A DNA stretch of 64,000 bases, from NCBI RefSeq assembly GCF_009017415.1, contig NC_092408.1, positions 3,100,001 to 3,164,000 of the forward strand. The letters are read 5' to 3'. The DNA comes from Aspergillus flavus (lineage: Eukaryota; Ascomycota; Eurotiomycetes; Eurotiales; Aspergillaceae). A program made the position numbers and the translations under genes. This document shows, piece after piece, positions 6,461 to 54,685 of the stretch (position 1 is the first letter of the stretch; each line of letters begins with the position of its first letter). Under the pieces are notes generated by a model that was not told where the DNA came from, did no database searches, and saw nothing but the letters and a program-made list of their open reading frames with translations.

Positions 6461-8192
6461 TTGGTCCCGGCAGAGACATGCTCTTACCGCGACAAGAGTC
6501 TAGGAAGCGCCGGTCGTTCTCGATGTGTGGAGATGGGACGGACCGAATTTCATGATGGTTGGCCGGAGCGAACGTTAGGAGGAATTAGGACGGAGAGTGG
6601 GAAGGAGAGTAAGGGACTGAATCGGCTCCGCTAGATGATTCGTTCTTTCTCTCCTGCTCTCTCTCGCACTCACTCACTCACCCCTCTGGAAGTAACTCAA
6701 GAAAAATCACCTCCTCACCGACAGGCCTAAGGTGTCATTGGGGGAAATTAGAGGGGAGGAGGCCGAAGTGGAGGGGAAACGAAAGAGGGATGATGATGGG
6801 AGAGGAGGGCCGATTGAGGAAACAGATTATCGGCGGCAAGAAAAAAGAAAAACAACCGCAGCAGCTCTCCTCGTGAATCGGTCGCAGGTTACACACTGAC
6901 GGACGTCCGGGGACGATAGGAATTGGTCTAACTTGGAGAATCTAACACGAGCACTGGTGAAGCTAAAAGAGTGTGATTAGAAATGCCTTGGTGTTGAAAA
7001 GACGGAAGTGGAGGGGGAGGATTGGACAGTATGTAAGAGCGAGTAAGTATATATTGTATGAAGTGAGGTCTGGAAAGTACCTAAAGCAGACTTTTGGAGC
7101 ACACAACCAATGGCCAGAACCGGTTTGGAAGATAGCGAGAGAAGTAATATGTAGTGGAGAATAGTGTCTATAATGATTCAAAGTTGAGTACGACTTATTT
7201 CTAGGTCGTTTCCCTTTCTTTGGCGCTCAGTATGAATTATTTAGATGGTATAGATCGGAGTTTTGGTATACATTATATAGAACGGAACTTGAAAACTTAA
7301 ATCAGGATTATATATTGTCGCACCAGGATTGAAACTATAATCTTGGATTTTGGAATATATTAATTTAAATTCTCTCACCTGCGGGAGAAGAAAGAAAGAG
7401 AAAAAAAAGAAAAAAAGAAGCATACCAAGTTTGGGTGACTGAGGAATCTCCCCTACTGAAGAAATCCACAGCTACAGTAAATGGTGGTTCCGCCTTCCGA
7501 CGTCCTCCTCCAACCATTCATTCAGTTCCCTCTCCTCCGCAAACCAACAGCAGCTCCCACCTCCAAATAATTCTCCTATACGAATCGCATTTCCAAGACC
7601 TAGAGGTTTCCCTTCCCTCTTTACCGCGATCTCACCCCCGAACGTCCCCAACGAACCAGGCAACCCACGGTGCCAATAGCGCAATCAACCAACCGCCTCT
7701 GCAAACACCAGTCGATCAATCATCGTCGCCTCTGCTCCCCAGAACCGAAACCAATTCCGTACCTAAAACCCGCTGCCCAACCCGTGAGGCTAGAGCCCTG
7801 CGACTGCTATCTTTGATCCGTGATTGGATTGGCAGCTCCGCGTCCGGCACAGGTCTAGTCCTGCGACTCTCATCTTTCACCCTTCTTGCTGGATACCTCA
7901 TCGGCTGGTGAGCCTTTCCTCCACTCTCCCCTCCTTCGTCAGCTCCACCGTGGTTCGCTACCGCTGTTTCTGTCGTTCCCCGGAGCTGTGCCACCTCGAG
8001 TCCTTGTCTTTGCCAAGAAAACGAGAAACGATGAGAGCTTACATTCCATGTCTGACAAAAGTGGAGCTTCAATAGTTCGATAAAAATTAATGTCCCATTC
8101 ACGCGCCTAGTTCACTACAACCTATTTGTTTTTCTTCATCAGAACTAAAAAAAAAAGAAGATTCTAATAAAATAAACAAAAGCTTCACGAAA
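6461..8192. other. Divergent intergenic region with CT-rich and GA-rich tracts
   Basis: It separates the Cnl1-like gene from the WBP11-like gene. It holds a CTCTCT/CACTCACTCA tract near 6645-6690 and an A/G tract at 7384-7420. An open frame at 7435-7911 lacks an internal ATG and is Pro/Ser-rich; I do not accept it as a gene. It may be transcribed as 5' leader. Confidence 0.45.
7384..7420. repeat. Homopurine (A/G) tract
   Basis: A 37-base run of A and G only, mainly GAAA and poly-A units. Such tracts are common in Aspergillus promoters. Confidence 0.7.
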
Positions 8193-9044
8193 ATGCCCAA
8201 GGAACGCAACTTCAACCCCGTCCAAGCGCAGCGGAAAGCAGACAAACAGAAAAGCTTGAAAAAAGCCAAATCCGAGGCGCAGGCTCGCCAGAATGAGAAA
8301 CTCGCCCGTCGCAACCCCGAGCGCATTCAGCGCCAGATCGATGACCTCAAAGCGGTAGAAGAGTCCGGCCAAAAACTACGGCCGCGCGATAAGGAGGTTT
8401 TGGAGGCGCTGGAGCGGGATCTGCGTGCTGTACAGAAGGCCCGGGAAGCACTAGGTGATAAGGCGCCGAAATTCGACAACCACCAGTCGAGGAGAGGTGG
8501 CTTTGGTGGCAGAGGTCGTGGTGACGGTGTATTAGGGAAGCGGAGGAGGGATGACCGCGGCCACTTCGGACAGGATAGTGAGAGTAGTGAGACAGATGAG
8601 GAAGTTCGACGAATTCCTATGCCGCGGGATACGCCGCCGCCAATTCCTCGCCAGTATCAAAAGAAGAGAGAGGGGGATGCAGATACAGGTCCTCGGGGAC
8701 CACATGGTTTACCGGCGAAACCGCCTGTGGTTGAATCCAGAACTGTTTATGAAGCGAAGCCAGAGATCAAGGATTTGCGACAAGAGGCTGTTAAGAAATT
8801 CGTTCCGGCCGCTGTTAGGGTTAAACAGGACGCCATTCGAGGGCAAGGAAAGCTACTTGAGCCGGAAGAAATGGATCGGCTGGAGAAAGCAGGCTACAAT
8901 GCTGGTCCTTCGGAAGCTGTGGGACAAGAGAGCTCTGATCAGCCTGATGATGTCGCTCAACAGCGGCTATTAGAAGAGGAGAAACGGTTTGACCAGGAAC
9001 TCAGATCCGTACAGATCGAGGACGTCGAAGATGAGGACGCATGA
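8193..9044 (+). CDS. WBP11/Saf1 N-terminal domain protein (splicing-associated)
   Basis: Intronless, 283 residues. The first 40 residues (ERNFNPVQAQRKADKQKSLK and following) are the basic WBP11/ELF5/Saf1 N-terminal signature. A charged helix then runs to about residue 90. The middle is Gly/Arg-rich, then acidic with SESSETDEE. A Pro-rich patch, PRDTPPPIPRQ, is a possible WW- or PQBP1-type ligand. Near residues 190-210 a KPEIKDLRQEAVKKFVPAAV block parallels the conserved C-terminal KPQI...FVPTALRV block of animal WBP11. In animals WBP11 is a spliceosome-activating nuclear protein. The fungal protein is much shorter than the human one (about 640 residues), so the shared role is inferred. It is convergent with nimA. 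Confidence 0.8.
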   Translation: MPKERNFNPVQAQRKADKQKSLKKAKSEAQARQNEKLARRNPERIQRQIDDLKAVEESGQKLRPRDKEVLEALERDLRAVQKAREALGDKAPKFDNHQSRRGGFGGRGRGDGVLGKRRRDDRGHFGQDSESSETDEEVRRIPMPRDTPPPIPRQYQKKREGDADTGPRGPHGLPAKPPVVESRTVYEAKPEIKDLRQEAVKKFVPAAVRVKQDAIRGQGKLLEPEEMDRLEKAGYNAGPSEAVGQESSDQPDDVAQQRLLEEEKRFDQELRSVQIEDVEDEDA

Positions 9045-9830
9045 AATGTATAACAGCGTATAATAATGATATCCAGTACTTCACGATGTACAACTGATAC
9101 CGGAAAATAGTAGGCTCTATCGCGGACATAGCACACATTGGAAAAAAGAATCTGAGATAGGTATTCTGCTTTGTGGCAGATCTCCTCAAAAGAGATAACA
9201 AAAAGTTGTATGTACATACAAAACCCTTCCATGAATACGCCTTTAAACCCAGCAAGCCATCAGGCAAATCCGCCCCTCAAACGCCCAAAAAGCAGAGACA
9301 AAAGGAAAATGATGTACAGTCCCAAAAGAGTGGCAGAAGTTGGCATGTCTCTGAGGACTGTGAAGCGGTCTAAGAACAAGAATCCAAGTCTTCGAGATGA
9401 GTGCAAAAGATCTCCAGACCCAAGGGCACCAAATCAATGCGGAAACCAAAAGCCGGCTGGCGAATGCAAATATCTGTACAGTATCCCCAAGTAATGGGGA
9501 GAGGAAATCAGAGAAACAAGGACATCACAGCGTAACGACAAAGGAAAGAATGGATCGGTCGGAGAGTACTAATAATTTTCAACGATGATGCACCCAGAGA
9601 GATGCACGGAGGCCTCGATTCTCTGCACAGTTAACTTCGTGCCCCAGAATGCACATAATCCAATCATAACTCCAGAGTGTTGCAAGTATTAAAGCGTATA
9701 AGAAACGAGAGGTGTCTTATGTAGATGCAGTTGTTTTCACGGATCAACCAGCGAAAACCAAAACCGACTGCTTTGTAGAAGTGAAATGTTGCCTTTGGGG
9801 CACAATAAGCCAAACAAGTAGTGATGGGTA
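9045..9830. other. Convergent 3' intergenic region (WBP11-like / nimA)
   Basis: Both flanking genes end here, so 3' untranslated regions and polyadenylation sites are expected. No coding potential is seen beyond shadow frames. Confidence 0.6.
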
Positions 9831-12730: not shown

Positions 12731-14800
12731 ATGTCTGAACCGACTGTGCTTCGCAAGGACCAGTTAGAGATCAGTTTACACAATGAAAAGAAACTGATCA
12801 AGGAGGGAACCATCAAGGACGATAACCCTCTCGATCTTAGTGAGCCATTTCGGGAGCTCTGCGCTGCTTGTCGTAAGGGGGATCTCAAAGTTTGTCAAGA
12901 GAAGATAACAGAAGGAGTCAATATTAATGCTCGCGACCCCTATGATTACACCCCCTTGATCTTGGTAAGTGATATTGGCTTCCATAGGACCACCCTGGGA
13001 ACCCTGTCGAATCACGCAAATCGTTGGCGATGGAAAGACGATAGTTCATTGCTAAGAGCCGTGCAGGCAAGTCTTTGTGGCCATTACGAGGTTGCCCAAT
13101 TGCTTCTCGAGTCTGGTGCATTATGCGAGCGAGATACGTTCCAGGGGGAGAGGTATGGCCGGCCCAGTTGCCACCCAACCTTCAAGTACCGCTGACGTGC
13201 GCGCTTGTGTAGATGTTTATATAATGCTCTGAACGATCGCATTCGGAATTTGTTGCTTGAATATGACTATTCTAAATCGACTGATCCCCTTCAGCCTCTT
13301 GCTGCCCACATCTCCTCCCTCCTCACCCGCGACCAGCCTGGGACGTCTGATATCGTTGTCACTGCCGAGGATGAGTCTCTGTACTTGCATAAATTCATAC
13401 TCTCTGCGCGATCACCTTACTTCCGGAGTAAGCTGGCAGCTTCCCCCAGTACCGCAACATGGAAGCTCCCCAACACTATTCCACCACAGGCTTTTGCCGC
13501 GGCGATCAAATATTTATATTTTGGGGAAGCACCTCGTGAACTAAGAAGTGGACCTGGCACGGGTTTCACTGAATCGGAAGTCTTTGCTGGCATCAATAGG
13601 ATTGCCAAACACTTGGAGATCGACACTCTTGTGGACAGCATTCTTGACAGTGGTGATAGGAGATTAGCCAGGCAGAGAAGGACTACAGAGCTTACAAGGG
13701 GAAGAGACCAATTAGAGGAATGGTTCCGCAGCAATGTTCTACAAAATAAGATGGTAGTCGAAACGATCAGGGCAGGCGACATCAAATGGGATCGCAACAA
13801 TGCCATTTTTGCAGATGTCTTGCTCCAAGCTGATGAACTGCCGGAGGAAACGGATGAACATAGCAATGGTACCCTGCAACCAGAAAACGGTGCCAATGCT
13901 GGCACGAAAGAGCAAACCCAGAAGTCTGTCCTCTTTCCCTGCCATCGGGCGATGCTTTTAAGGTCTGAATTCTTTCATACGATGTTCTCGTCACCATTCC
14001 GTGAAGCGCATCTAAAAGATCATCTACACATCATCAACGTCGACTGCTCCCCGGACGTGCTAGAGATTATCCTTACGTTCCTTTACACGGAGAGTGTCGA
14101 TTTCCCGCTTGAAGTTGCGGTTGATGTTCTTTTCGCTGCAGACATGCTGTTTATAGAGAAGCTCAAAACCAAAGCAGCAGTCGTGATCAGCACCCTCGGT
14201 AGCGGTAACATGTCCCAGGCGGAAGCTGCGAAGACCCGGGGCACTAAGGAGGAAGAGGACCTCGACATATATGCCATAATTCGAGCTGCATGGATGACAC
14301 GGGTTCAAAGACTAGAGGAATTTGCGGCTCGCTATCTAGCCTATCGGTTGGAAGCTCACATCGATTCACCTGAGTTTGCTGAATTGATTCAAGAGTCGGC
14401 TTCTCGTATCCAAGGAAGACAAGAAACTGACTCCATCGAGCTGCTAGACGACATACGCTTTTACCTGGGCGAGCGATTCAGACTCAGGTTCGACGACGCT
14501 GGTCTCGAAGAAATGATGGAAGAGGAGGCTGAGCAGCATGCCCCCGACGCGATTGCCAATGACGAGACTATTGAAAAGGTCGCACATGGTGTTGAGGCAA
14601 TTGATCTTACGGACAAGGGTTCTCCTGAAGTGCTGAATAATGCAGAACACGCTTCCCAGGAAGCACAGGAGAATGTCCCTGTCATGCGCAACTTGAACGG
14701 AGAAATTGTTGTGGACGAATTCGATAAGGATTCGATGAATTATCACATCCTGATGGATAAACTCGACAAGATCTTGGAGAGCTTGAATTTGGAAGCTTAA
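12731..14800 (+). CDS. Ankyrin repeat and double BTB/POZ domain protein (Btb3/ABTB1-like)
   Basis: Three exons (12731-12964, 13067-13152, 13213-14800) give 635 residues; introns are 102 and 60 bases. Ankyrin-type repeats occupy about residues 36-110 (FRELCAACRKGDLKVCQEKI; CGHYEVAQLLLESGA). A first BTB domain starts near 150 (SDIVV, LHKFILSARSPYF) and a second near 304 (FADV, FPCHRAMLLRSEFF, FLYTESVDFPLEVAVDVLFAADML split over the fold). The C-terminus is acidic. This ankyrin-BTB-BTB order is that of human ABTB1, fission-yeast Btb3 and budding-yeast YIL001W. These are thought to be Cullin-3 substrate adaptors or translation-linked factors; the role here is inferred. It is divergent from nimA. 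Confidence 0.85.
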
Positions 14801-16095
14801 TCCCGATCTCGATGAGGTAGGGTTGGATGCAAGAGGTAAATATGACGATTGATGATTACACGCAGGATATATATAGAAAGTTGATATCTATACGTCGTTC
14901 CCGATATATTTTCTTGGGTTGATGGCCATATATTGGAATAAACTCATGCTGACTATATATATTTATCTCTCACTCCTTTTTCTATCTACCAAGGAAATAT
15001 ATGTATGCTTTGATACTCTAACATTTACGACTGATTCCAAACTACAGCTCCAAACTTCTACATTCACAGTATCCATCACCTACGATACTGTTATATATCA
15101 GTCAACTTCTGGTCAAAACCATCCAGTTTACTTAGCCGTCAGCCGTGCAAGGGAGTCAGTGTTCGACTGTTCACCAGCCTCAGCTATAGGACAACAACCG
15201 AGGCACAGCCCAAGCAATCAAGCCACACTCAACGGAGGCAGGTTCGAAGAGCCAAGCATGCGATAGAGACGACGTTAGCCAGGTCACAAGGCAGTCAGCT
15301 AATACAAGCAGACAAGACAACCTTGAATCCATCCGGCCGAATACACAACCTAAAAGCGCAGGATATACGGAGGGTATACAAGTCGGAAAGGAGGCAATGA
15401 TACAATACAGGCACATGATAAACGATAATGCATCGCTGGTACCCTGAAATGTTATCTTACGTGTCACACCACATCCCTCACCGTCCGAAGGCGATCCGAG
15501 CCGCAAACTGTCAATGCGATAGTTTTCAAGGCGAAAAGTCAATGTGACTCTCGTGTCTGCCGTGGGTATGTGACTACTATACATACAGGCATACATTGAC
15601 ACAGTCCGTGCTTGTCAAGTCGTTAAATTATACCCTACAGAGAAAGACTAAGAAGCAAATAAGAGGGGAAAAATACCTCACAGAGAGTTTGCATCTGGGA
15701 TCCATGTGTTCGGCAAATGTGGACTGAGTTCGCGCGTGTGACAAGAAAATGAGGCCATGCATATGGGGCTGAAGGACTATAACAGCCTTGATACTATTAG
15801 CATAGCCCAAGAATCACAGGATGATATGAGGTATGAGAACAGGCCCTCCTGCATTACAGTGGAAACGAAGATCATCCGGTTTCGCTTCGTCCTCCACATC
15901 ATCTTTGAGTGGATATGGCACGGTGTTAATTTTTCCTTTTTTTCCTTGTTTCGTTTCTTACGGTGGAGATCAGAGCCTTTCGGTGTGGTGCTCTGGAGAG
16001 ATCACACACTGACGCACCAACGAATGTAGATGTCCAGCCTCCTAGCCGGTTGGGATTTACGGTACAGACGAGGCTACTAAGGCAATGGTTGGAGC

Positions 16096-30039: not shown

Positions 30040-31077
30040 ATGGATCTCGCCAGCCTTATCACTCCGGGTCCTGAACCCATCTACAAGTCTCGGGCATCCT
30101 ACAGCCCTCCTCCCAGCTCTGCGGGTTCCTACAAGCGCCCGGCTGAACACGACTCTTACTTCTCGTACTCGCGCGCCCCGCAAGCCCCTCTTTCCCCGCC
30201 AGTCGAGGACCAGCCCAAGTGCTCTCTTCCCTCTATCTCGACTCTCTTGGAAGGCGCCGACAGCGCATCGACATATGCTGCAAGTATGTCTCCCCGAGAC
30301 CCCATTGCGCACCATGCGCATGACCTCTGGAAGCACTGATGACTGACTTTCACCGGCGCAGAGCGTCAAAGAACCAGCCCACCCCCGCGCAGGGAGTCTG
30401 AGTTCCGTTCACCTTATGACTCAGTCTCAACACCAAATGGCCCTCCTACTCCACCTTTGCGCCCTGAATCGGGCTTCCACAGCGGCCACCACTCTCCCTC
30501 TGCTTCGTCCGTGACTAGTGGAAAGGCCATCAAGCTCGAGTCGTACTCGCAAACCCCCATGACACTGCCTAGCCCGTCCGATAGATCCTCGATCTCCAGC
30601 CAGGGCTCTGTCCACCACGTTTCCGCTGCTCCCTACGCTTCTCCTGCCCCCAGTGTGGCCTCGTACTCTTCGCCGGTTGAATCCTCGGCTCCGTCCGCCA
30701 TGTACTACCAGAGACCTTCCGGCTCCTACCAGACCCCTGCTACTGTGCCTAGCCCCTCCGCTGCTCCTATGCCTGCATCTGCCACACACCAGCAGATGAT
30801 TACTCCCGTCACTCCGGCCTGGCAGCACCACCACTACTTCCCGCCTTCCAGCTCGGCACCCTACCAACAGAACCACGACCGGTATATCTGCCGGACTTGC
30901 CACAAGGCCTTCTCCAGACCATCCAGCCTGCGCATCCACTCTCACAGCCACACTGGCGAGAAGCCATTCCGCTGCACCCACGCCGGCTGCGGTAAGGCGT
31001 TCAGCGTACGAAGCAACATGAAGCGCCACGAGCGCGGCTGCCACACCGGACGCCCCGTCGCCACCGCCATGGTATAA
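30040..31077 (+). CDS. mtfA: C2H2 zinc-finger regulator MtfA
   Basis: MtfA is a nuclear transcription factor that controls secondary metabolism and development in Aspergillus. Two exons (30040-30283, 30362-31077; intron 78 bases) encode 319 residues. The N-terminus [18 protein letters not shown] is characteristic. The middle is Ser/Pro/Tyr-rich, with [11 protein letters not shown] near residue 82 as a likely nuclear signal. Two C2H2 fingers fill residues 256-309 ([36 protein letters not shown]), joined by the TGEKPF linker; the second ends with a Cys-His (ERGCH). Only ten residues follow. The frame is open seven codons upstream of the chosen ATG. A 15-kb gene-free region precedes it. Confidence 0.9.
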
Positions 31078-33897: not shown

Positions 33898-38236
<4,339 letters not shown>

Positions 38237-44527: not shown

Positions 44528-47128
44528 CTACGGATCATTCTGTCCGTTAAAGATCTTTTCAATCTCTTGCCAATCCAGGTGATCGACACCGGTAAGTGGC
44601 AGCGATGGATCAAAGAAACTGGAGTAAATCCCCTCTGCCTCCACCGAAAGGTCTAGATGCCAGTCCCAGTCCACTTGCATGTCAAACGTTGCATTAGCGG
44701 TATCAGGGTGCATCCACGTCTCCAGAAGCCGACTTTCATCCCGGCCCTGTTCCCAGCCTTCGGCAGCCACGGTCGTATATTGGGGTGGCTGCGGAGGAAT
44801 AGCCGAAGCCGATGTGTGAGGGACCGATGCATCTCCTCTCGGGCCGAGCGAGGATAAACTGATTGCACTCAGTGAGCCACTGTCTACTTGTTCACCTTGC
44901 TGTCTATCTGCTCCTAGAATATGGTTTGGCCATACATGCATACAAGAATGCGTGATGTCTTGTAAACGGCGTTCGGCGGCTAGGTTACCAGCTCGGGACA
45001 GGAACCGAAGGACATCGAATGCTTGGTCTAGAGCTGGGGGAGGTTGATCCTGAGTCTTGTCTATGAGGCCCATCATGACCAGAACAAAGGCGCCGGAGAA
45101 TGTGGCGTCCAGATCAAAAAAGCCATATCGGGCTGCAATGATGGTCAGCGGGACAGCCTGGGATAGAAATAGGACATTACATACGTATGGTCTGCTGGCG
45201 CTTGAGTGCGTGAAGAATGGCTAGACTTTTCGTCGCGGCCTCATTACACGTCTCACACAGACGGCCTAACGCTGCTGGAAGAGGCTGCAGTGCCTGTTGG
45301 TTACTATGTTTTTGGACCTCCCGACGAACACGTTGTAGAAGAACAGGGCGAGTGCAAAGTATAATGGCCTATTGATCTTCTGGTTAGGTAGGAGCATATT
45401 GTACCTATCTGGGGGTATCTGACCTGGAACAACATTAAATAGAGCGATGCGCCTGTCCGTGTTACTGTCTGCAGAGGACGAGTGAAGTCGAGAACAAGAG
45501 CAGGGGGGAAGGAACGGCCTGTCTCATAAAGATTCTGAAGGATCTTCTGGATCTTGTAGACAAGCTCCAGTTGAGTAATGGATGTATTCCCATATAGAGC
45601 TTGTATTTCGTCAGAGTCGGAACGTATAGCTTGTTCATCAGGATTAACACAAACATGACATGATCTCGTCTGTGGCACGTGCAATGCGGACATTGATAGC
45701 CAAAGCAATGGGGGATTGAAACCCGATGGCTTGTCGAGGCAGCTCGGCGCGCAGCTGTCGCTCATCTGAGCCAGCGGCCAGCCCTAGGCCAGAAGAAAGA
45801 CGTCTACATCATCAGGTTATTATCTGAATCTTGCATACATAAGCTAAAGACCTACCGATCCAGCATGTACACTGTCCACCAAAGTCTCACGCGATGAGCT
45901 GTTTCTGAAGGCAGACAGCGTTGTTCACGCGCTGGCTTATCAAAACCCAAGGCTATAGCTAGTCGTAAAGCGAGACCGATCTGTATCCGATCAGTCATTG
46001 TGCCCAGACTCAATTCACCAAACCCTCATACATATAGGTACGCATCGTGCTTCCGGTCGCACCACTGGAGGTAGGTGGCGATGAGTGTTAGGATCTCAAC
46101 AGTAATAGCCCCTTCCTCGCCCAGTTGATGCAATGGAGGCAACCGTCTCATTGCTTCTGCAAAGAGACTCGCACCTGGTGGTTGGGAGGAAGGGTCTTCT
46201 ACATCCATCAGCTTAGCCATCGCCATGACGAGCAGATACTCGGTGAACCAGATCGTGTGCATCTGGTGTTCCTGCGTTTGTTCATCCTGAAAGAGCAGTA
46301 CCATGCTATCAGAAAAGGTGCGAGGGTCGAAAAAATGCTGGCTAACACCAAGGTAGAAGAGGAATCGATCGAGTAGATCTTGGGACTCCTCTAGAGATGG
46401 GATAGTCGGCACGGCATCATCGCTGACCAGCGGCCTCGCCGACGTCCATTGTGTTACAGCTTCCGTAGAGCCTCTGTTACCAGGGGCCCGTAAGAGTGCA
46501 CTGTTAGCTGGGTGGTTCCTATCAAGAAGGGACTTGACTTGGGATTCAAATGCCGGTCCTGAAGTCAAGTCGGTTGCTGAATCAATCAGTCAAAGTTCTA
46601 TGACCGAACGGCTACCGGCTTACCTGGACTGATCCCCGTGTCGCTTTCTTGATAAGGCATAGCTTCGGTCGTGTATTCATTGCGGATACCTGTACCTGAT
46701 GTGGCAGGAGGAGCTGCTAATCCTTACAAGTCATGATTCGTCCGTGACTCTTTAGCATTGTTCCCACATACCTTGCGAAAGGGTACTAAGTTGCTCTTCA
46801 TACAGCTGAATCTTATCTAGTAGATTTTTGACATGTCTATGTATGGAGCTGTCAATTGAAATCCCCATTGTTTGAGAAAGAAAGGTGGACATACGCCTCG
46901 GTATACCTTCTACGGCCGGCATGACCAGGTACACATTCCCAATTATGTCTAACACAGCTGCGACAGGGCTGATCTCCAGAGCATTTCACCTTACGTCGGC
47001 GGCAAGATTCACATCTATAGAATGTCAGTATGATACCGTATCGTACTGCGTGGATTGAACCTTCGGATGGAACCTCCGAGGGTTATCGGGACTTACGCAT
47101 TGGTCGCGCGCGGATTTGTAGTCACCAT
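44528..47128 (-). CDS. Zn2Cys6 fungal transcription factor
   Basis: A nuclear binuclear-zinc-cluster regulator. Ten exons (47128-47097, 47014-46895, 46836-46772, 46716-46624, 46576-46032, 45980-45856, 45803-45655, 45599-45424, 45368-45185, 45132-44528) give 697 residues with every junction in frame. The zinc cluster is at residues 12-38, spaced C-X2-C-X6-C-X5-C-X2-C-X6-C. A short helix follows (VKNLLDKIQLYEEQLSTLSQ), which may dimerise. The middle homology region lies at about 190-420, with LRLAIALGFD and RLWWTVYMLDR, the usual fungal_trans signature. The tail is acidic. The 55-base intron at 45600-45654 uses a GTTTGT donor and AAG acceptor. It is divergent from the dddP-like gene, which it may regulate (inference). 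Confidence 0.88.
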
Positions 47129-47703
47129 CTTGTCTTTCGGACTGGATCGAATGCTGTCATAGAAGTAATCGACCTGGAACCCTAAGTATCCGACAATACT
47201 AGTATCCTGTAATACGTCTATGAGCGACAGATCTCATATAGCATTCGTCGGCAATCAAGATAGTTGAGGTTCTTCGAATGGAAGGTGGGGGTTGAACTCG
47301 GAAGAGATCCCGAGAATCTACTATTTAACTAAATGGTAAACCCTAACATATAACTCATTGCTGTGAACTTCCACCCAAAATCCAAGATACAATCAAATTC
47401 CACGGTCCATAACAGCTTGAAGATATATTGCAACATTGGAGTCCTAGCAGTGCCTTACAGTGCCATGGTTTGGTTTGCTCTTTTGGCTCTTTTGACCGAG
47501 ATGATAGATTATGGGCCTTGTGCCTCATACTCACTACATACTGTACATTGTAGAAGGTAAGATAGATAATCCCCGAGAGTTCCCCAACTGACCTCATCCG
47601 CCATCCCCATCAATTGTCCATACTGCACCCTTGCAGTCGGTTGCTCAGCAGAGCCGACACACCCCAGGTGAGGAATCTCAGGGCAACAATTGCCGCCAAC
47701 GCT

Positions 47704-47719
47704 TCGGCTTCGAAGCCGA
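47704..47719. promoter_or_regulatory. 16-base palindrome TCGGCTTCGAAGCCGA (CGG-N8-CCG)
   Basis: The sequence is its own reverse complement and places CGG and CCG half-sites 8 bases apart. Inverted CGG triplets with fixed spacing are the known targets of dimeric Zn2Cys6 proteins. It lies 272 bases before the dddP-like start codon and 576 before that of the regulator. Binding is inferred. Confidence 0.5.
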
Positions 47720-47727
47720 GCCCCACT

Positions 47728-47738
47728 CGGCATCCCCG
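47728..47738. promoter_or_regulatory. CGG-N5-CCG element
   Basis: CGGCATCCCCG lies eight bases after the larger palindrome. It has the inverted triplet form of a Zn2Cys6 site but a different spacer. Confidence 0.35.
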
Positions 47739-47990
47739 ATCAATTATAGAATCAACATCTCGTGAGAAGACATAAGGGGAGATAAAATCCTATTGAGCAA
47801 TCATTTCATGTGTCGTGGATCCAATGCCCATAAAGGGACAGGTCACCTTACCAGAACCCAGCTGTTGTTGACTTGAGTCTTCATTAGATGTTGATTATAA
47901 GAGGGGCCCTGATGTCCAAATTCAAGTCCTCCCCATCACTTTCAACTGCCACTGTCCATTTGGACTACAGAGAGAAAAGTCCCGTCCACG

Positions 47991-49337
47991 ATGGAAGAAC
48001 CGCCCTTCTCCATCCCTCCTCATTCTCGGCGTATCGACCCCACCCAGCCGCGCACCGCTACGTTCAAACCTGATGGTTCAGACAACGACAACGACCGCGT
48101 AGAGGTCGGACCGACTCCGCTGGCGTTCGCGGAGTGGCAGCATCTGGGTCTGCAGCCACCTCACCTACCGACCATGCGCGCGTATCGTCTACAGCGCATT
48201 TGCGATCAACTAATTAGTCGCGACCTAGGTGGCATCCTATTGTTCGATCCACTGAACATCCGTTACGCCACCGACACCAGCAATATGCAGCTGTGGACAG
48301 CGCACAACCCCTCCCGGGCCTGCTTCGTCGCCGCCAGCGGTTACCTAGTGTTGTGGGATTTCCATGGTTGCAATCATCTTTCTGCGCACCTGCCGCTGAT
48401 TAAGGAAACGCGCAGTGGCGCCTCTTTCTTCTACTTTGAAACCGGCAACCGTACCGATGAACACGCCGCGCGTTTCTGCGCACAAGTTGACGAATTGCTC
48501 CGAAAGCATGCCGGCAATAACCGCCGGCTAGCCGTGGACCGCATTGAAGTCGCCGGCCTGCGTGCCCTCGATGCGCTGGGAGTGGAAGTCTGTAATGGGC
48601 AGGCCGTCACCGAGCTTGCGCGGATGATTAAGGGCCCAGATGAGATCCGGGCTATGCGCTGTGCGGTCGCCTCCTGCGAAGCCGCGGTTGGCGAGATGCG
48701 TCAGGCCATGCGCGCCGGTGCCACAGAAAATGACGTCTGGGCTGCTCTGCACGCAGGCAATATTCGCCGTGGCGGCGAATGGATTGAAACTCGCCTTCTT
48801 AGTTCCGGACCGCGCACCAACCCTTGGTATCAGGAATGCGGGCCGCGGATACTTCGCGATGGAGACCTGGTGTCGTTCGACACCGACCTCATTGGCGTAT
48901 ACGGTATCTGCGTGGACATGTCGCGCAGCTGGATCTGCGGCGACCTTGAACCTACAGCAGAACAGAAACGTCTGTATCGCATCGCCCACGAACATATCAC
49001 CAATAACATCGAGATGGTTAAGCCCGGGGTACGTTTTACGGAACTGACGCGCAACGGTCACCGCCTGCCTGAAAGCTGCCGCGCTCAGCGCTATAGCGTG
49101 ATGTTTCATGGTGTAGGCCTGTGCGACGAGTACCCTACCATCCGCTACCCCGAAGACCTGGAGTCTTACGGCTACGAAGGAGAGCTGCAAGCGGGCATGG
49201 TACTATGCGTTGAGGCTTATGTCGGTGAAGTGGGCGGCAAAGACGGCATCAAGCTAGAGAACCAGCTACTCGTGACGGAGACGGGCTATGAGCTACTAAC
49301 TCGCTATCCCTTCGAAGAGAGCTTCCTACGCGACTGA
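47991..49337 (+). CDS. dddP: DddP-type DMSP lyase (M24 peptidase fold)
   Basis: Predicted to cleave dimethylsulfoniopropionate into dimethyl sulfide and acrylate with a two-metal centre. It is a single uninterrupted frame of 448 residues among multi-exon neighbours, and visibly richer in G/C at third codon positions. The N-terminal RRIDPTQ, NDNDRVEVGPTPLAFAEW and LLFDPLNIRYATDTSNMQLW match bacterial DddP closely. Metal ligands expected from bacterial DddP are all present: Asp297 and Asp299 (SFDTDL), Asp309 (CVDMSR), His373 (FHGVGL), Glu408 (CVEA) and Glu423 (KLEN). The proposed catalytic Asp379 (GLCDEY) is kept. The positions are those of the bacterial enzyme plus two. DddP homologues are known in a few ascomycetes, including Aspergillus, and are ascribed to horizontal transfer. 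A different M24 activity cannot be excluded. Confidence 0.85.
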   Translation: MEEPPFSIPPHSRRIDPTQPRTATFKPDGSDNDNDRVEVGPTPLAFAEWQHLGLQPPHLPTMRAYRLQRICDQLISRDLGGILLFDPLNIRYATDTSNMQLWTAHNPSRACFVAASGYLVLWDFHGCNHLSAHLPLIKETRSGASFFYFETGNRTDEHAARFCAQVDELLRKHAGNNRRLAVDRIEVAGLRALDALGVEVCNGQAVTELARMIKGPDEIRAMRCAVASCEAAVGEMRQAMRAGATENDVWAALHAGNIRRGGEWIETRLLSSGPRTNPWYQECGPRILRDGDLVSFDTDLIGVYGICVDMSRSWICGDLEPTAEQKRLYRIAHEHITNNIEMVKPGVRFTELTRNGHRLPESCRAQRYSVMFHGVGLCDEYPTIRYPEDLESYGYEGELQAGMVLCVEAYVGEVGGKDGIKLENQLLVTETGYELLTRYPFEESFLRD

Positions 49338-49893
49338 TCCTGAGCCTATTCTCGCTTATGCCAAGCCGCCTCGCCAAAGGATGCTCTGATCGAAGTACGT
49401 AGTTTGATCGGAAGCCGGCGAAATCGGATAGACTAGACCACAAAGGGAAAGGTAGCTGAGGTCCACTGTTCCTAAAATAGAAGGCGGTACTTCATAATTC
49501 CGCGCTAGGAAAGACCGCTTGAACCTCGTAGCCAGGAAATACACCTTCAGTAGTAATTTATACCTCCTCTATCTCAGCCAATGCTTGTGGATTCAACATA
49601 AAACTTACTCAGAGTATTGAGACTTTTATGATTAATTATCCTAGCTAATAAAATTAACTTTGCATAAGCTGAATAGCACAACAGAATACCCCACCAGAAG
49701 GTCCAACATCCGATGAACCATCCCAGAAAATGTTCAAAAGTTCTGCCGGTTCAATGAACAGCTTAAACACTTGCCGCCTTGCTTGATCGGATTTAGCCTC
49801 AATTAATTGCGGAGATTCATCGTTCTCCGCACGAACAATCCAATTCCTATATATCCTTTTGACATAGATTTAACCCGACCTCTCCTCTGCATT
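49338..49893. other. Intergenic after dddP-like gene
   Basis: AT-rich 3' flank of the dddP-like gene and promoter of the next small gene. Nothing else is seen. Confidence 0.5.
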
Positions 49894-50264
49894 ATGGCCT
49901 CCACCCAGAAAGCACGACGTCTCATTCTAACCACCGCGGTGGTCTCAATCACCATCGCCGGAACGCTCTACGGCGCCGGTATCAAGACCGAACAAGAGGT
50001 TACTCAGGTATGGCTATAGAAAATCCCATTAATACTTCCCCGCCTGTTTCAATTGGCTAATCTTCGTTTTCTCCCCGTGTTTAGACAGTCCAGAAAAAAG
50101 AGGAAGCTTCAATAGACGAACGAATTGCGTCTCTTCGGGGAATGCGGCAAAATCTAGCGGCGAAGAAAGAACTTGTTGAGCGGCAGATTAACGATTTAGA
50201 TGCTCGAATTGAGGAAAGGAAACGGAAAGGCATCGACGGATCGAAGAGGGAACCATCTTCATGA
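49894..50264 (+). CDS. Small single-pass membrane protein with coiled coil, unknown function
   Basis: Two exons (49894-50007, 50085-50264; intron 77 bases, GTATGG...TTTAG) give 97 residues. A basic N-terminus (MASTQKARR) precedes one hydrophobic segment at about 10-29 (LILTTAVVSITIAGTLYGAG). A charged helix at about 45-85 (IDERIASLRGMRQNLAAKKE, then VERQINDLDARIEERKRK) looks like a coiled coil. The form recalls small mitochondrial assembly factors, but I do not recognise the family. The spliced frame and short intron support a real gene. Confidence 0.6.
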
Positions 50265-51073: not shown

Positions 51074-54000
51074 TCAATCATCCAAAATTCCGCGCGAGAG
51101 CGCCGCGAGGCTTGCTTCATAACGTGCAGGATTGTGGTCACTGAACATTCCTGATCCGAATCTCATTTCTCCAAAGACGGATTCGACGTCTCGAATAAAC
51201 TTGAGCTGGACTCTCGTTGCAGGACGACCTAGCCGCGGATGGCCATCATCACCCATACCCGACGTGAAAGCATCCCGCTGCAAGACACGCATGGTTTCGA
51301 CCACGAATACCTCCCCCGGGGGCATCAGCTTAGGCGCGAGCATTTCCTCTCTGAGCATTTTGAGAGTCTTCCATGCCCAAGCGTCCTCACCAATCCCGTC
51401 ACCAGCATGCTGGACTATAGGCGGCTCGTTGACGTAGAACTTATTAACGATACTCTGCCGCAAACTGTTCCAGACACGGCCTTGTACGTGCGACTTGGTT
51501 CCTGAAACGTCACTCTTGAAAGCCACTGACACCGTATGCATGTCATGCAAAATTCCTAAAGAAAGGCTGGGTACCACATCATGACCGTTAACAATTGTTG
51601 TAATTAACCCACGTGTCGCACGGCGAAGAAAAGGGGACATGGCTGCAGGCGGACCATATGCGTACACATGTATAGGTCGTCCCGAGGGAAGAAAACACGC
51701 CGTTTGGTTGGTGTCGCTGCTTCCAGTTAGGAGCAAACGTTGCGCGGTGGCTTGATATGAAGCAGTCACAAACGATGTCCCGTAGCCATCATTCGTAGGT
51801 TCCGATATCATCGTAGCTAATAGTGCAGCAACACCTCCGCCTAGCGAGTGACCGCAGAGTACCACGCCATAATCTGGGAATTCCTCCAAGGCAGCTCTGA
51901 TTGTAATCATAACTTTACCACCTCCCCCCATCAACAGTCGTTGCGCAGAAGCATGCATGCCCTTATGAACTTTCCAGCTCTTTCCTTGCCATTCCAGGTC
52001 ATCATAATCACAGGTCATATCTGTGAGGATATCTTCGAAGCCCCATGTTCCCCTAAGTGTCAAGACAACGGCCTTCGATTCATGATCTAGAAACAGGTAA
52101 TGGACCAGAGGAAACCCGGTCTCCGTCTCTCCAGCAGCATTTGACCCACCCGCGGGATCGACAAAGGATGATAGAAGGATTGTCGAAGCTGGTAGGCCGG
52201 TGTGGTCCGAAAAGTCGCTGTGCTCGCGACTGTCAGATTCCTGATATGCAAGAGCCTTGGTCGTTGGTGGAACACCCATGACTTTGAGGGCATTTGATCC
52301 ATAAGATGCCGAGGAAAACCGGAGGAAACGCCTGATATTTTGCACAAAATGCTTTTCGGGAAATATTCCTGGAACAAGTCCATCGCGGCTTAATGCTTGT
52401 ATAGTTTCCATATCATCGTAAGCACTCTTGCGGGACCGATGCGCAAGTATGAGTGACGTCTCTGAACCAGCCGTGGCTAAGGAGTATATGCTGGGAGTAA
52501 ACGTATGAGAGCTTCTGTGTAAATGTGAGGAGCTTGGACGTCCATCATTGACAGACACAGACATGTCCGCCTCAGATCGTGTGACGGACATAGAACTGCT
52601 GCTACGCACATGTGTCCTCACACCGGCAGAAGATCTCGGGCGCACGTTTGTAGAATAAGCATCTGTTTGCTTCATGAAAGATTCTTCATTCTTCTCATGT
52701 ATCGCATAAAACTCAGGCATCGGACCCCTTTCGGGGGGCATTTCTCGTACGCTAGTACCTCGTGCTGTTGAAGGGACAGACAGTCGAGAGCTTTGTAAAG
52801 GCGATCTTGGTGAGCCTCGGTTCGCTACGGACGAAACTCGAGCCTTTGAAGGAAGTGGCGGCTTTTCCGATTTTGCTTCTGCGGTAGGTTTCGGAGATTG
52901 TTTGGGAGCTGATGGTTTTCTTTCAGGGACATAGCCTTTAGAACCCTTGCTGCGTTGGACGGAATGAACCGGTGGCGTGCTAGACTTTTCCTTAACCGAC
53001 AGTCGCTTACTCTGACCACTTCTTTCAACACTCGCCGGTTTCACTTTCTGTGCAATCCTCGTCAGGGAGCCTTTCCCAAACGAACCTTTCGAGATAGTGT
53101 CGGCTTCGTTTGAGGCGGTTCGAGTAGATTCTGTGCTATATCTTTTAGAGCTATTTGAATCAGCGAGTAGCGTTGGCTCGTATGAAGATTTACCCAGTCC
53201 ATTGGTTCCCGGAAAACGACTGTTTCGATGGCTGCCATCTTCAATTTCAGTTTGGATGGTTTGTATTGGTTTGTCTTGGGGTTTAGCATGACGGTGATCT
53301 GCGACAGTTGATTCGGCGTCAGGGAGTGAGTCAGTAATCGCAATACCTTGACTCAAGTAAGGACTCTGGTCGCCATGGTCAGAACTGATCTCGTATATAC
53401 CCGAGATATCGTCTCCACGTGATAGCCTCACGTCTGCGCTTTGAGATTTATTGAAAGCCGTTCGAAAAACAACAGTGTGCTTGGGAAATTGGGGAGGACT
53501 CGATCCTCCACTGCTGCCAAGGCACTGGTCGTTACGGAACCTTTCCTCAATCACCATCGTACCGGGCGGAGCAGCAATCTCTGCGCTGTCGTCATCATAA
53601 ATATCGACTGTAATAGTACGTGCAGTGACTAGGTCAGTCTTTATCGAGGCACGACAGCCTTGAGGAAGCTGCTTCATAATATACAACCGAATGTCATCGT
53701 CGGACATTTGATGGTCTCCTGGGGGAAGCGAAAGGGGATGTTTCTCGGCCATATCACCCCTACTCGCCGGACGCTGCACAGCATCGAAGGCTTCTTCGTC
53801 ATTTCCGGGCGATATGAAAGACGAGCGCCTCGTCTCATCGTGGAATTCGCTCCGAGGCCTTCTCGTAAGTTCTATCTGATGCATCCCAACAACATCTGCT
53901 CTGACCCCATTATCTAAGATGACAACATCCCAGATGGCCTCCTCCCCACCATTCGTACGTATTTGTCGTTCGGTGTTTTTTCTTCCCCAACGCTGAAGCA

Positions 54001-54685
54001 TGGCGAAGCCAACTGTGCCTATTAAGAGGTCACCGACACCAATGTTATCATCAGTCATAGACTCAACTCTTGGGTTCCGAAATTCTCTTCGGATAAGTGT
54101 TATGATGGCAGCTATTGCCCTTGAAGACTCAGTTGAGCCAAGTATTGCATCAAGGGTAGACAAAAGCGCCTGGGACATATTTGAAGCAGATGAGAGAGTT
54201 GTGGAAGAGAAATGAAACGTTGCAGCGACGAAGAACGATGCAGACGTGACCGACTTGTGCAGAGCGGCAAGCTAAACATAACTCAGCTAATGTAAGTCAA
54301 TTGGAGTAGACGCTAGATTTAAACTTACGCTTCGCTCTAGTATAGATTCTGCTTCTACTCTGCCATGTTCTCCGCTACTCCTCGTAGCCACATCCCGCCC
54401 GGCTCTTGTCAGGACGCCTTCAATGACTGCTCTACTGAGCTCCAATCCCGTCAGTGTGGTGGCTCTTGCTCCATCGATGGCCACTCCTCCGAAGAAAGTC
54501 CCGACTCGGAGAGAAAGCGAAGTGGACTGGGTAACAAAGGAAACAATCGAAGCCACTGGACGTGGAAGTAGAGTTGCGCCTGAGGTTGCGGGTATATGGC
54601 TTGCGCCGTCACCCTGGGCCACTTCTAGATCAGGTTGGGTCTCAGCTCGCCTCAACATAGGCACAAGGCCGAATATATTAGGCAT
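51074..54685 (-). CDS. Large class-3 lipase domain protein (diacylglycerol-lipase-like)
   Basis: Two exons (54685-54329, 54271-51074; intron 57 bases) give 1184 residues. Residues about 400-720 are disordered and rich in Ser, Pro, Lys and Arg. The C-terminal third is a Lipase_3 alpha/beta hydrolase: VVLTLRGTWGFEDILTDMTC, the nucleophile elbow GHSLGGG with Ser near 928, YAYGPPAAMSP, a likely catalytic Asp in NGHDVVPSLSLG (near 1017), and a candidate His near 1165. This layout resembles sn1-specific diacylglycerol lipases. The N-terminal exon has moderately hydrophobic stretches but no clear four-helix bundle as in animal enzymes. Hydrolysis of diacyl- or monoacylglycerol at membranes is inferred. 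The frame is open throughout. Confidence 0.82.

Follow-up and report, generated by a model that had tools for sequence, protein, structure and literature searches.

Our analysis of the window, by which we mean the whole 64,000-nucleotide stretch of Aspergillus flavus DNA, indicates that the forward-strand frame at 47991..49337 is a fungal DddP gene (dddP) with a complete active site and a predicted DMSP lyase fold, and that its probable origin is a transfer from a Pseudomonas-like bacterium, a reading to which we give a probability of roughly four in five. Since cleavage of DMSP has been reported for the DddP enzymes of A. oryzae, of A. sydowii and of Fusarium, the fungal kind is already known, and what is added here is the likely Pseudomonas source and the betaine-island setting rather than the gene itself.

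The gene and its predicted active site

The frame runs unbroken through 448 codons from ATG to TGA and, because relatives align along all of it, no intron is needed, just as the original prediction for this locus had it. From the open reading frame and the database matches we take it to be a single-exon gene for a predicted 448-residue DMSP lyase of the DddP type; a putative TATA-like box, TTATAAG, can be read at 47895..47901 (+), 90-96 bases upstream of the ATG. The protein scores 630.8 bits against the NCBIfam DddP equivalog NF043017, for which the cut-off is 600, the next family reaches 49.4, and the protein stays far under the cut-offs of the other nine NCBIfam models listed. A search of the PDB gives four DddP sequences at 517-545 bits (best E 1.6e-162) and the next M24 protein at 79. 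The solved DddP chains align with residues 12-445 of the 448, with NDND from residue 32 and GPTP from residue 40, so that the full-length alignment with DddP claimed earlier holds good. The claim of a DddP-type enzyme stands likewise, on the PDB scores, the NF043017 score and the model fold described below, and the alternative that the original prediction had named, a place among the prolidase- or creatinase-type M24 enzymes, is at odds with 79 bits for such a protein against 545 for DddP. Judged by its sequence, the frame is confirmed as real and as correctly named a DddP-type gene.

Six metal ligands (Asp297, Asp299, Asp309, His373, Glu408 and Glu423) and a catalytic Asp379 had been predicted, and alignment with DddP finds every one of them in its place. 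On the forward strand the predicted ligands are encoded at 48879..48887 (Asp297-Thr298-Asp299, which holds two of them), 48915..48917 (Asp309), 49212..49214 (Glu408) and 49257..49259 (Glu423), and the stretch 49092..49127 leads from Tyr368 via the ligand His373 to Asp379, the proposed catalytic base. These roles follow those of RdDddP, whose metal ligands are given as Asp295, Asp297, Asp307, His371, Glu406 and Glu421 and whose proposed catalytic residues are Asp377 and Tyr366 (PMC4108388). In our alignment Tyr368 is the counterpart of that Tyr366, and all eight active-site residues are shared by every one of the 170 DddP rows compared (taken from 121 proteins and 49 loci, L002-L050), a set that also served for a 170-row tree. 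DddP is also described as having a Phe in place of the second M24 histidine (PMC5395565).

The AlphaFold model of the window protein has a mean pLDDT of 84.1, with residues 267-283 poorly modelled. When it is compared with the PDB by Foldseek, ranks 1-4 are taken by RlDddP and RdDddP with a TMq of 0.90 and an identity of 52-54%, and the remaining 46 matches listed are M24 enzymes with a TMq of at most 0.68. If the enzyme works as has been proposed for marine DddP, the two-metal centre formed by the six ligands would hold DMSP by its carboxylate, Asp379, perhaps with the help of Tyr368, would take the proton adjoining that carboxylate, and cleavage of the C-S bond would yield dimethyl sulfide (DMS) and acrylate. 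Production of DMS by this A. flavus copy is thus a prediction, and its DMSP would likely be supplied by plants or plant litter. For the other product, no acrylate reductase (YhdH/AcuI, TIGR02823) was found above the cut-off in the genome, the best score being 87.3 against 297.25 bits.

The locus and its codon usage

The window covers positions 3100001-3164000 of its contig. There is one match to dddP in the 37,736,778-base, 8-contig genome, and the gene is therefore single-copy. The left flank (46600..47960) and the right flank (49340..49890) were both searched across the genome and each matches only itself, so that no repeated flanks were found beside the gene. The nearest long neighbour is a lipase-3 gene, identified by Pfam and protein search, whose main open segment lies at 51077..54271 (-) and is 100% identical to an A. 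flavus protein, which anchors the dddP locus in a fungal chromosome; to other named species the lipase is at most 94% identical at full length, A. parasiticus reaching 95% over half. By this one marker the genome falls in the A. flavus/A. oryzae complex. The neighbouring segments carry Pfam matches that are ordinary for a fungus, namely a GH35 beta-galactosidase, the lipase, an FMN-dependent dehydrogenase, an MFS transporter and a histidine phosphatase. Two further genes of the Pseudomonas islands described below were searched for as candidates for co-transfer, and this was rejected, the best genome matches being distant kin at 30% (Rieske) and 33% (DHDPS).

Several other features of the neighbourhood may be recorded here. 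Directly left of dddP, at 44531-46589 (-), lie three open segments with no Pfam match, which could possibly be one fast-evolving or lineage-specific gene. On the other side, at 49894-50264 (+), is a small gene for which we propose two exons and whose product would have a hydrophobic segment near its N-terminus and a charged tail; a guess that it is PET117 was dropped, there being no Pfam match. Further away, open segments at 33901-37786 (-) combine an AAA_23 ATPase head with weak matches to SMC_N and look SMC-like, and a C2H2 zinc-finger segment at 30343-31074 (GC 0.617, GC3 0.684) is as odd in composition as dddP and sits in a kilobase of strong negative GC skew.

The gene itself has a GC of 0.584 and a GC3 of 0.645. 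The GC3 of seven Pseudomonas dddP genes ranges over 0.544-0.846, and that of nine local fungal coding segments over 0.454-0.678, with eight of the nine at 0.454-0.558. The earlier observation that the codons are rich in G/C is therefore right in so far as dddP exceeds eight of the nine local segments, but the beta-galactosidase (0.678) and the zinc-finger segment at 30343-31074 are higher still, and because of this GC3 alone proves nothing. In its codon usage dddP scores -1.105 per codon under a Pseudomonas dddP model against -1.182 under the local fungal model, and eight of nine local fungal segments prefer the fungal one. At the DNA level dddP is 78.6% identical to its counterpart at the Pseudomonas locus L006. 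Compared with the loci L002, L006 and L008, dN/dS is 0.066-0.085; against L003-L005 it is 0.019-0.056, but there the synonymous sites are near saturation and the ratios mean little. These values indicate purifying selection on dddP since its split from Pseudomonas, so that the gene is probably functional.

Relatives, trees and the source of the gene

The protein search scored the 8000 candidates that had the most words in common with the query, and the best 120 were listed. The fungi among the matches listed are Aspergillus transmontanensis (89% identical), Fusarium lateritium (87%), A. puulaauensis (87%), Bionectria (86%) and Penicillium citrinum (82%), and after the fungi the matches listed are mainly Pseudomonas at 80-86%. 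A profile built from 16 fungal-side sequences, seven of them without an organism name, was run over 7999 scored candidates; among the 120 matches listed 15 of the 16 profile members rank first (the sixteenth, the window protein, is absent from the listing), the 642-residue F. graminearum protein P0033, which was outside the profile, comes 37th among bacterial rows, and no further fungal names appear. When the best 80 of 585 bacterial genome loci are considered, the window protein shares 74-85% identity with the seven from Pseudomonas and no more than 66% with any of the remaining 73. The nearest Pseudomonas are for the most part species of soil and of plants. The idea that plasmids carry the Pseudomonas clade was considered and rejected, the best plasmid match being to Oceanisphaera at 64.6%. 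As an observation apart, one contig of a Granulosicoccaceae MAG (L066) has two DddP genes, at 14661-15950 (-) and 8001-9275 (+), which are 57% and 58% identical to the window protein.

The original prediction had proposed a phylogeny of the protein with its bacterial and fungal relatives, and two trees bear on it. The first, made with IQ-TREE, has 81 hand-picked rows: 17 fungal, 36 on the Pseudomonas side (which includes Pantoea P0054, the compost metagenome P0006 and several rows without a name) and 28 from other bacteria (L009-L036), many of them marine or sediment by name. Ten of its fungal rows are nine named fungi and the window protein; the other seven (P0002, P0003, P0008, P0010, P0045, P0055, P0113) were counted as fungal from their position in the 170-row tree, which favours fungal monophyly. 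The second tree has 56 named rows: 10 fungal (the window protein included), 20 Pseudomonas, 22 other bacteria and four of roseobacter type. In both trees fungi and Pseudomonas form a group with 100/100 support, and none of the remaining bacteria falls within it, neither the 28 of the first tree nor the 26 of the second, among which are the roseobacter types. Moreover, AU tests reject a grouping of the fungi with seven sediment gammas (p 7.7e-5) and with the four roseobacter-type DddPs (p 1.0e-4). With 100/100 in two trees and both of these rejections, we regard the affinity of the fungal dddP sequences with Pseudomonas as firm. A bacterial affinity had thus been rightly foreseen, and the marine donor proposed with it is not what the trees and identities favour.

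The finer topology is less sure. The fungal clade has a support of 97/85 with 17 rows in the first tree and 70/91 with the ten named-fungus rows of the second, and at 70/91 more than one transfer is possible. P. caricapapayae (L007) branches below the fungi and the remaining Pseudomonas, with 99/95 in the 81-row and 100/97 in the 56-row tree, which places the fungi inside Pseudomonas. However, an AU test does not reject all Pseudomonas as one clade sister to the fungi (p 0.247), so that the nesting hangs on this single row and the transfer direction rests on support values and parsimony. We are therefore less sure that the fungal copies form one clade nested in Pseudomonas than of the affinity itself. 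More generally, we infer the direction of transfer, the nesting and the number of transfers from support values, the bacterial outgroups, and an intron-free gene with Pseudomonas-leaning codons.

How do other accounts of this gene compare with a gain from a Pseudomonas-like bacterium? An ordinary M24 peptidase (a prolidase, aminopeptidase P or creatinase) misnamed DddP could be argued for from Peptidase_M24 (PF00557), the only Pfam family above threshold in the window protein, and from some public records that name relatives Xaa-Pro aminopeptidase; however, in the PDB search every other M24 protein scores more than 430 bits below DddP, which, together with Asp379 and the DddP N-terminal region, makes this extremely improbable, and we reject it on the PDB scores and the NCBIfam models. 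Bacterial contamination of the assembly, which an intron-free gene about 85% identical to Pseudomonas might bring to mind, deserves next to no weight, since dddP sits within a contig that is 4.5 Mb long or more, between fungal genes and with unique flanks, since its closest relatives among the matches listed include named fungi, and since the 19 closest Pseudomonas rows form a group without the window protein (99/94 in the 56-row tree); the single match in the genome, the lipase neighbour and the unique flanks led us to reject it. Descent from marine bacteria such as roseobacters, in line with the original prediction, fits published statements that dddP is frequent in marine bacteria and, in general terms, that it was transferred to ascomycetes (PMC3338564, PMC5015088). 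We consider it highly improbable here, because the listed Pseudomonas at 80-86% stand against at most 66% for the 73 other loci among the best 80 of 585, because the outside bacteria split off in both trees, and because the AU tests reject both the sediment gammas and the roseobacter types.

The fungal copies could also be old and vertical, going back to one ancient transfer into an ascomycete ancestor with later loss in most lineages, and AU tests do not reject the monophyly of the four named Eurotiales (p 0.39), of the five Fusarium (p 0.372) or of A. flavus with A. transmontanensis (p 0.167). On the other hand, the window protein is 88% identical to Fusarium lateritium but 82% to Penicillium citrinum, the Aspergillus copies are united in neither tree, and donor-like codon usage persists in dddP; the neighbouring lipase, for its part, compared over almost all of its length, has an identity of just 58-60% or so to Penicillium proteins. 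Taken together these points leave vertical descent unlikely, though not negligible. Transfer from fungus to fungus was also considered, being suggested by the identities, yet the AU tests leave the species groupings unrejected and we did not retain it as a result. Two of the AU tests (A and E) address one and the same split, and the second brings no further information.

Betaine islands, substrate and known DddP enzymes

The setting of dddP in Pseudomonas bears on what the enzyme may be for. At four of the seven Pseudomonas loci (L003, L004, L005, L008) dddP lies with ProV, ProW, ProX and a GbdR-like AraC regulator, and near it are an oxidase of the DAO type, an aldehyde dehydrogenase and a gene of the DHDPS family. 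The names of these island genes rest on tests of L005 and of several proteins from L002, L003, L006 and L007; the genes of L004 and L008 were named through their clustering with L005 by BLAST. Four of the seven (L002, L004, L005, L008) likewise have a Rieske protein whose nearest structures are 3n0q, 4qup and 3vca, which we take to be stachydrine demethylases. L007 has a betaine-aldehyde dehydrogenase above the cut-off and a choline-binding-like protein under it, and at L006 dddP stands between a LysR-type gene and efflux genes. In bacteria other than Pseudomonas, dddP has an MttB-family methyltransferase nearby at eight of 80 loci, these neighbourhood counts being for the best 80 of the 585; the glycine betaine methyltransferase 9yce is among the relatives of this family with a solved structure. 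In Mesorhizobium (L065) dddP is accompanied by such a methyltransferase, by a B12-binding protein and by a member of the enolase superfamily whose nearest structures are 4e8g/4izg/4j1o, hydroxyproline-betaine epimerase. BCCT transporters are near dddP at L020 and L038. In all, at least one counted betaine-type family is near dddP at 17 of the 80 loci and none at 63, many of the loci having short flanks. A GcvA-like LysR regulator is also seen near dddP at 11 of the 80 loci, in four genera (L002, L004, L005, L006, L008, L013, L015, L018, L020, L065 and L067), and by this association it is a candidate dddP regulator.

Since dddP is among betaine genes at four of the seven Pseudomonas loci, DMSP may not be the main substrate there. 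One could go further and suppose that the main natural substrate is another plant onium compound that enters by the same importer, for example beta-alanine betaine or a different betaine, with DMSP cleavage a side activity. The importer, regulator, oxidase and DHDPS genes of the islands, the Rieske protein close to 3n0q/3vca and the Mesorhizobium locus all speak for this, but counted betaine-type families are near dddP at only 17 of the 80 loci, and the catalytic residues of DMSP-active DddP are all kept. The lyase chemistry requires a leaving group beta to the carboxylate; proline betaine has none, which by chemical reasoning speaks against that compound. In the literature, the high Km of marine DddP, 14-17 mM (PMC5395565), favours another substrate, and the fungal DddPs assayed in print cleave DMSP (PMC10686828, PMC4108388, PMC9629503). 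On balance we think such a substrate rather improbable. For the Pseudomonas-side branch we infer a role in the scavenging of plant osmolytes, in which DMSP would be one osmolyte among several.

These considerations lead us to a tentative proposal, possible but short of probable, that a branch of DddP shaped by land plants arose in the betaine islands of Pseudomonas, jumped to ascomycetes and moved among moulds as a single-gene cassette, whose role would be the harvest of plant DMSP or of an onium osmolyte related to it. According to a 2024 paper, every plant examined contained DMSP (PMC11464771), which makes a marine link unnecessary, and the description of the substrate as a marine osmolyte in the original prediction proves too narrow. 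Given a Pseudomonas source and DMSP in land plants, moulds such as those of the A. flavus group might release DMS on crops and litter that has so far gone unmeasured and, if the proposal is true, DMS from such moulds would be a terrestrial trait rather than a marine import. The betaine islands, moreover, offer a direct test of the role of DddP outside the sea. The papers covered here describe dddP as a marine-bacterial gene passed to some fungi, and our trees point to Pseudomonas instead. In the literature covered, which takes in few subscription papers, we found no statement of a Pseudomonas source for fungal dddP and none of Pseudomonas dddP in betaine islands. A dddP gene is listed for the P. 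thivervalensis genome (PMC8515041). The marine Pseudomonas sp. DMSP-1 is reported, with data not shown in that paper, to have a DMSP-cleaving DddP close to those of alphaproteobacteria (PMC5015088), and thus some DddPs of Pseudomonas may lie outside the branch described above.

Among known systems, the marine roseobacter enzymes RlDddP and RdDddP (PDB 4rzy, 4s00, 4s01, 4b28) are like the window protein in model fold and in all eight active-site residues; they are 52-55% identical to it (for RdDddP 52.2% over the full length and 54.5% of aligned positions), and RlDddP carries five extra residues, inserted at the point that follows residue 242 of the window protein. Pseudomonas DddP (NF043017; for example P0013, P0027, L002 and L006) is closer, at 84-86% identity, with about 448 residues in a single frame and with length and active-site residues as in the window protein; its gene sits in a betaine-gene island at four of seven loci, whereas the fungal gene stands alone among unrelated fungal genes. 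Closest in kind are the ascomycete DddPs, and the earlier statement that DddP is known in a few ascomycetes agrees with what is published for Aspergillus and Fusarium: E. coli made DMS when given the DddP of A. oryzae or of F. graminearum (PMC4108388), both DMSP and DMSOP are cleaved by F. culmorum (PMC10686828), and for A. sydowii both dddP and activity are reported, F. lateritium also degrading DMSP (PMC9629503). AoDddP of A. oryzae RIB40 is given as 50% identical to RdDddP (PMC4108388), a similar value to that of the window protein, so that the two may be one gene, present in sister strains or species. The DddPs of A. oryzae, A. sydowii, F. graminearum and F. culmorum thus have their activity in print, whereas the A. 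flavus copy, an ascomycete DddP like them, is known from its sequence.
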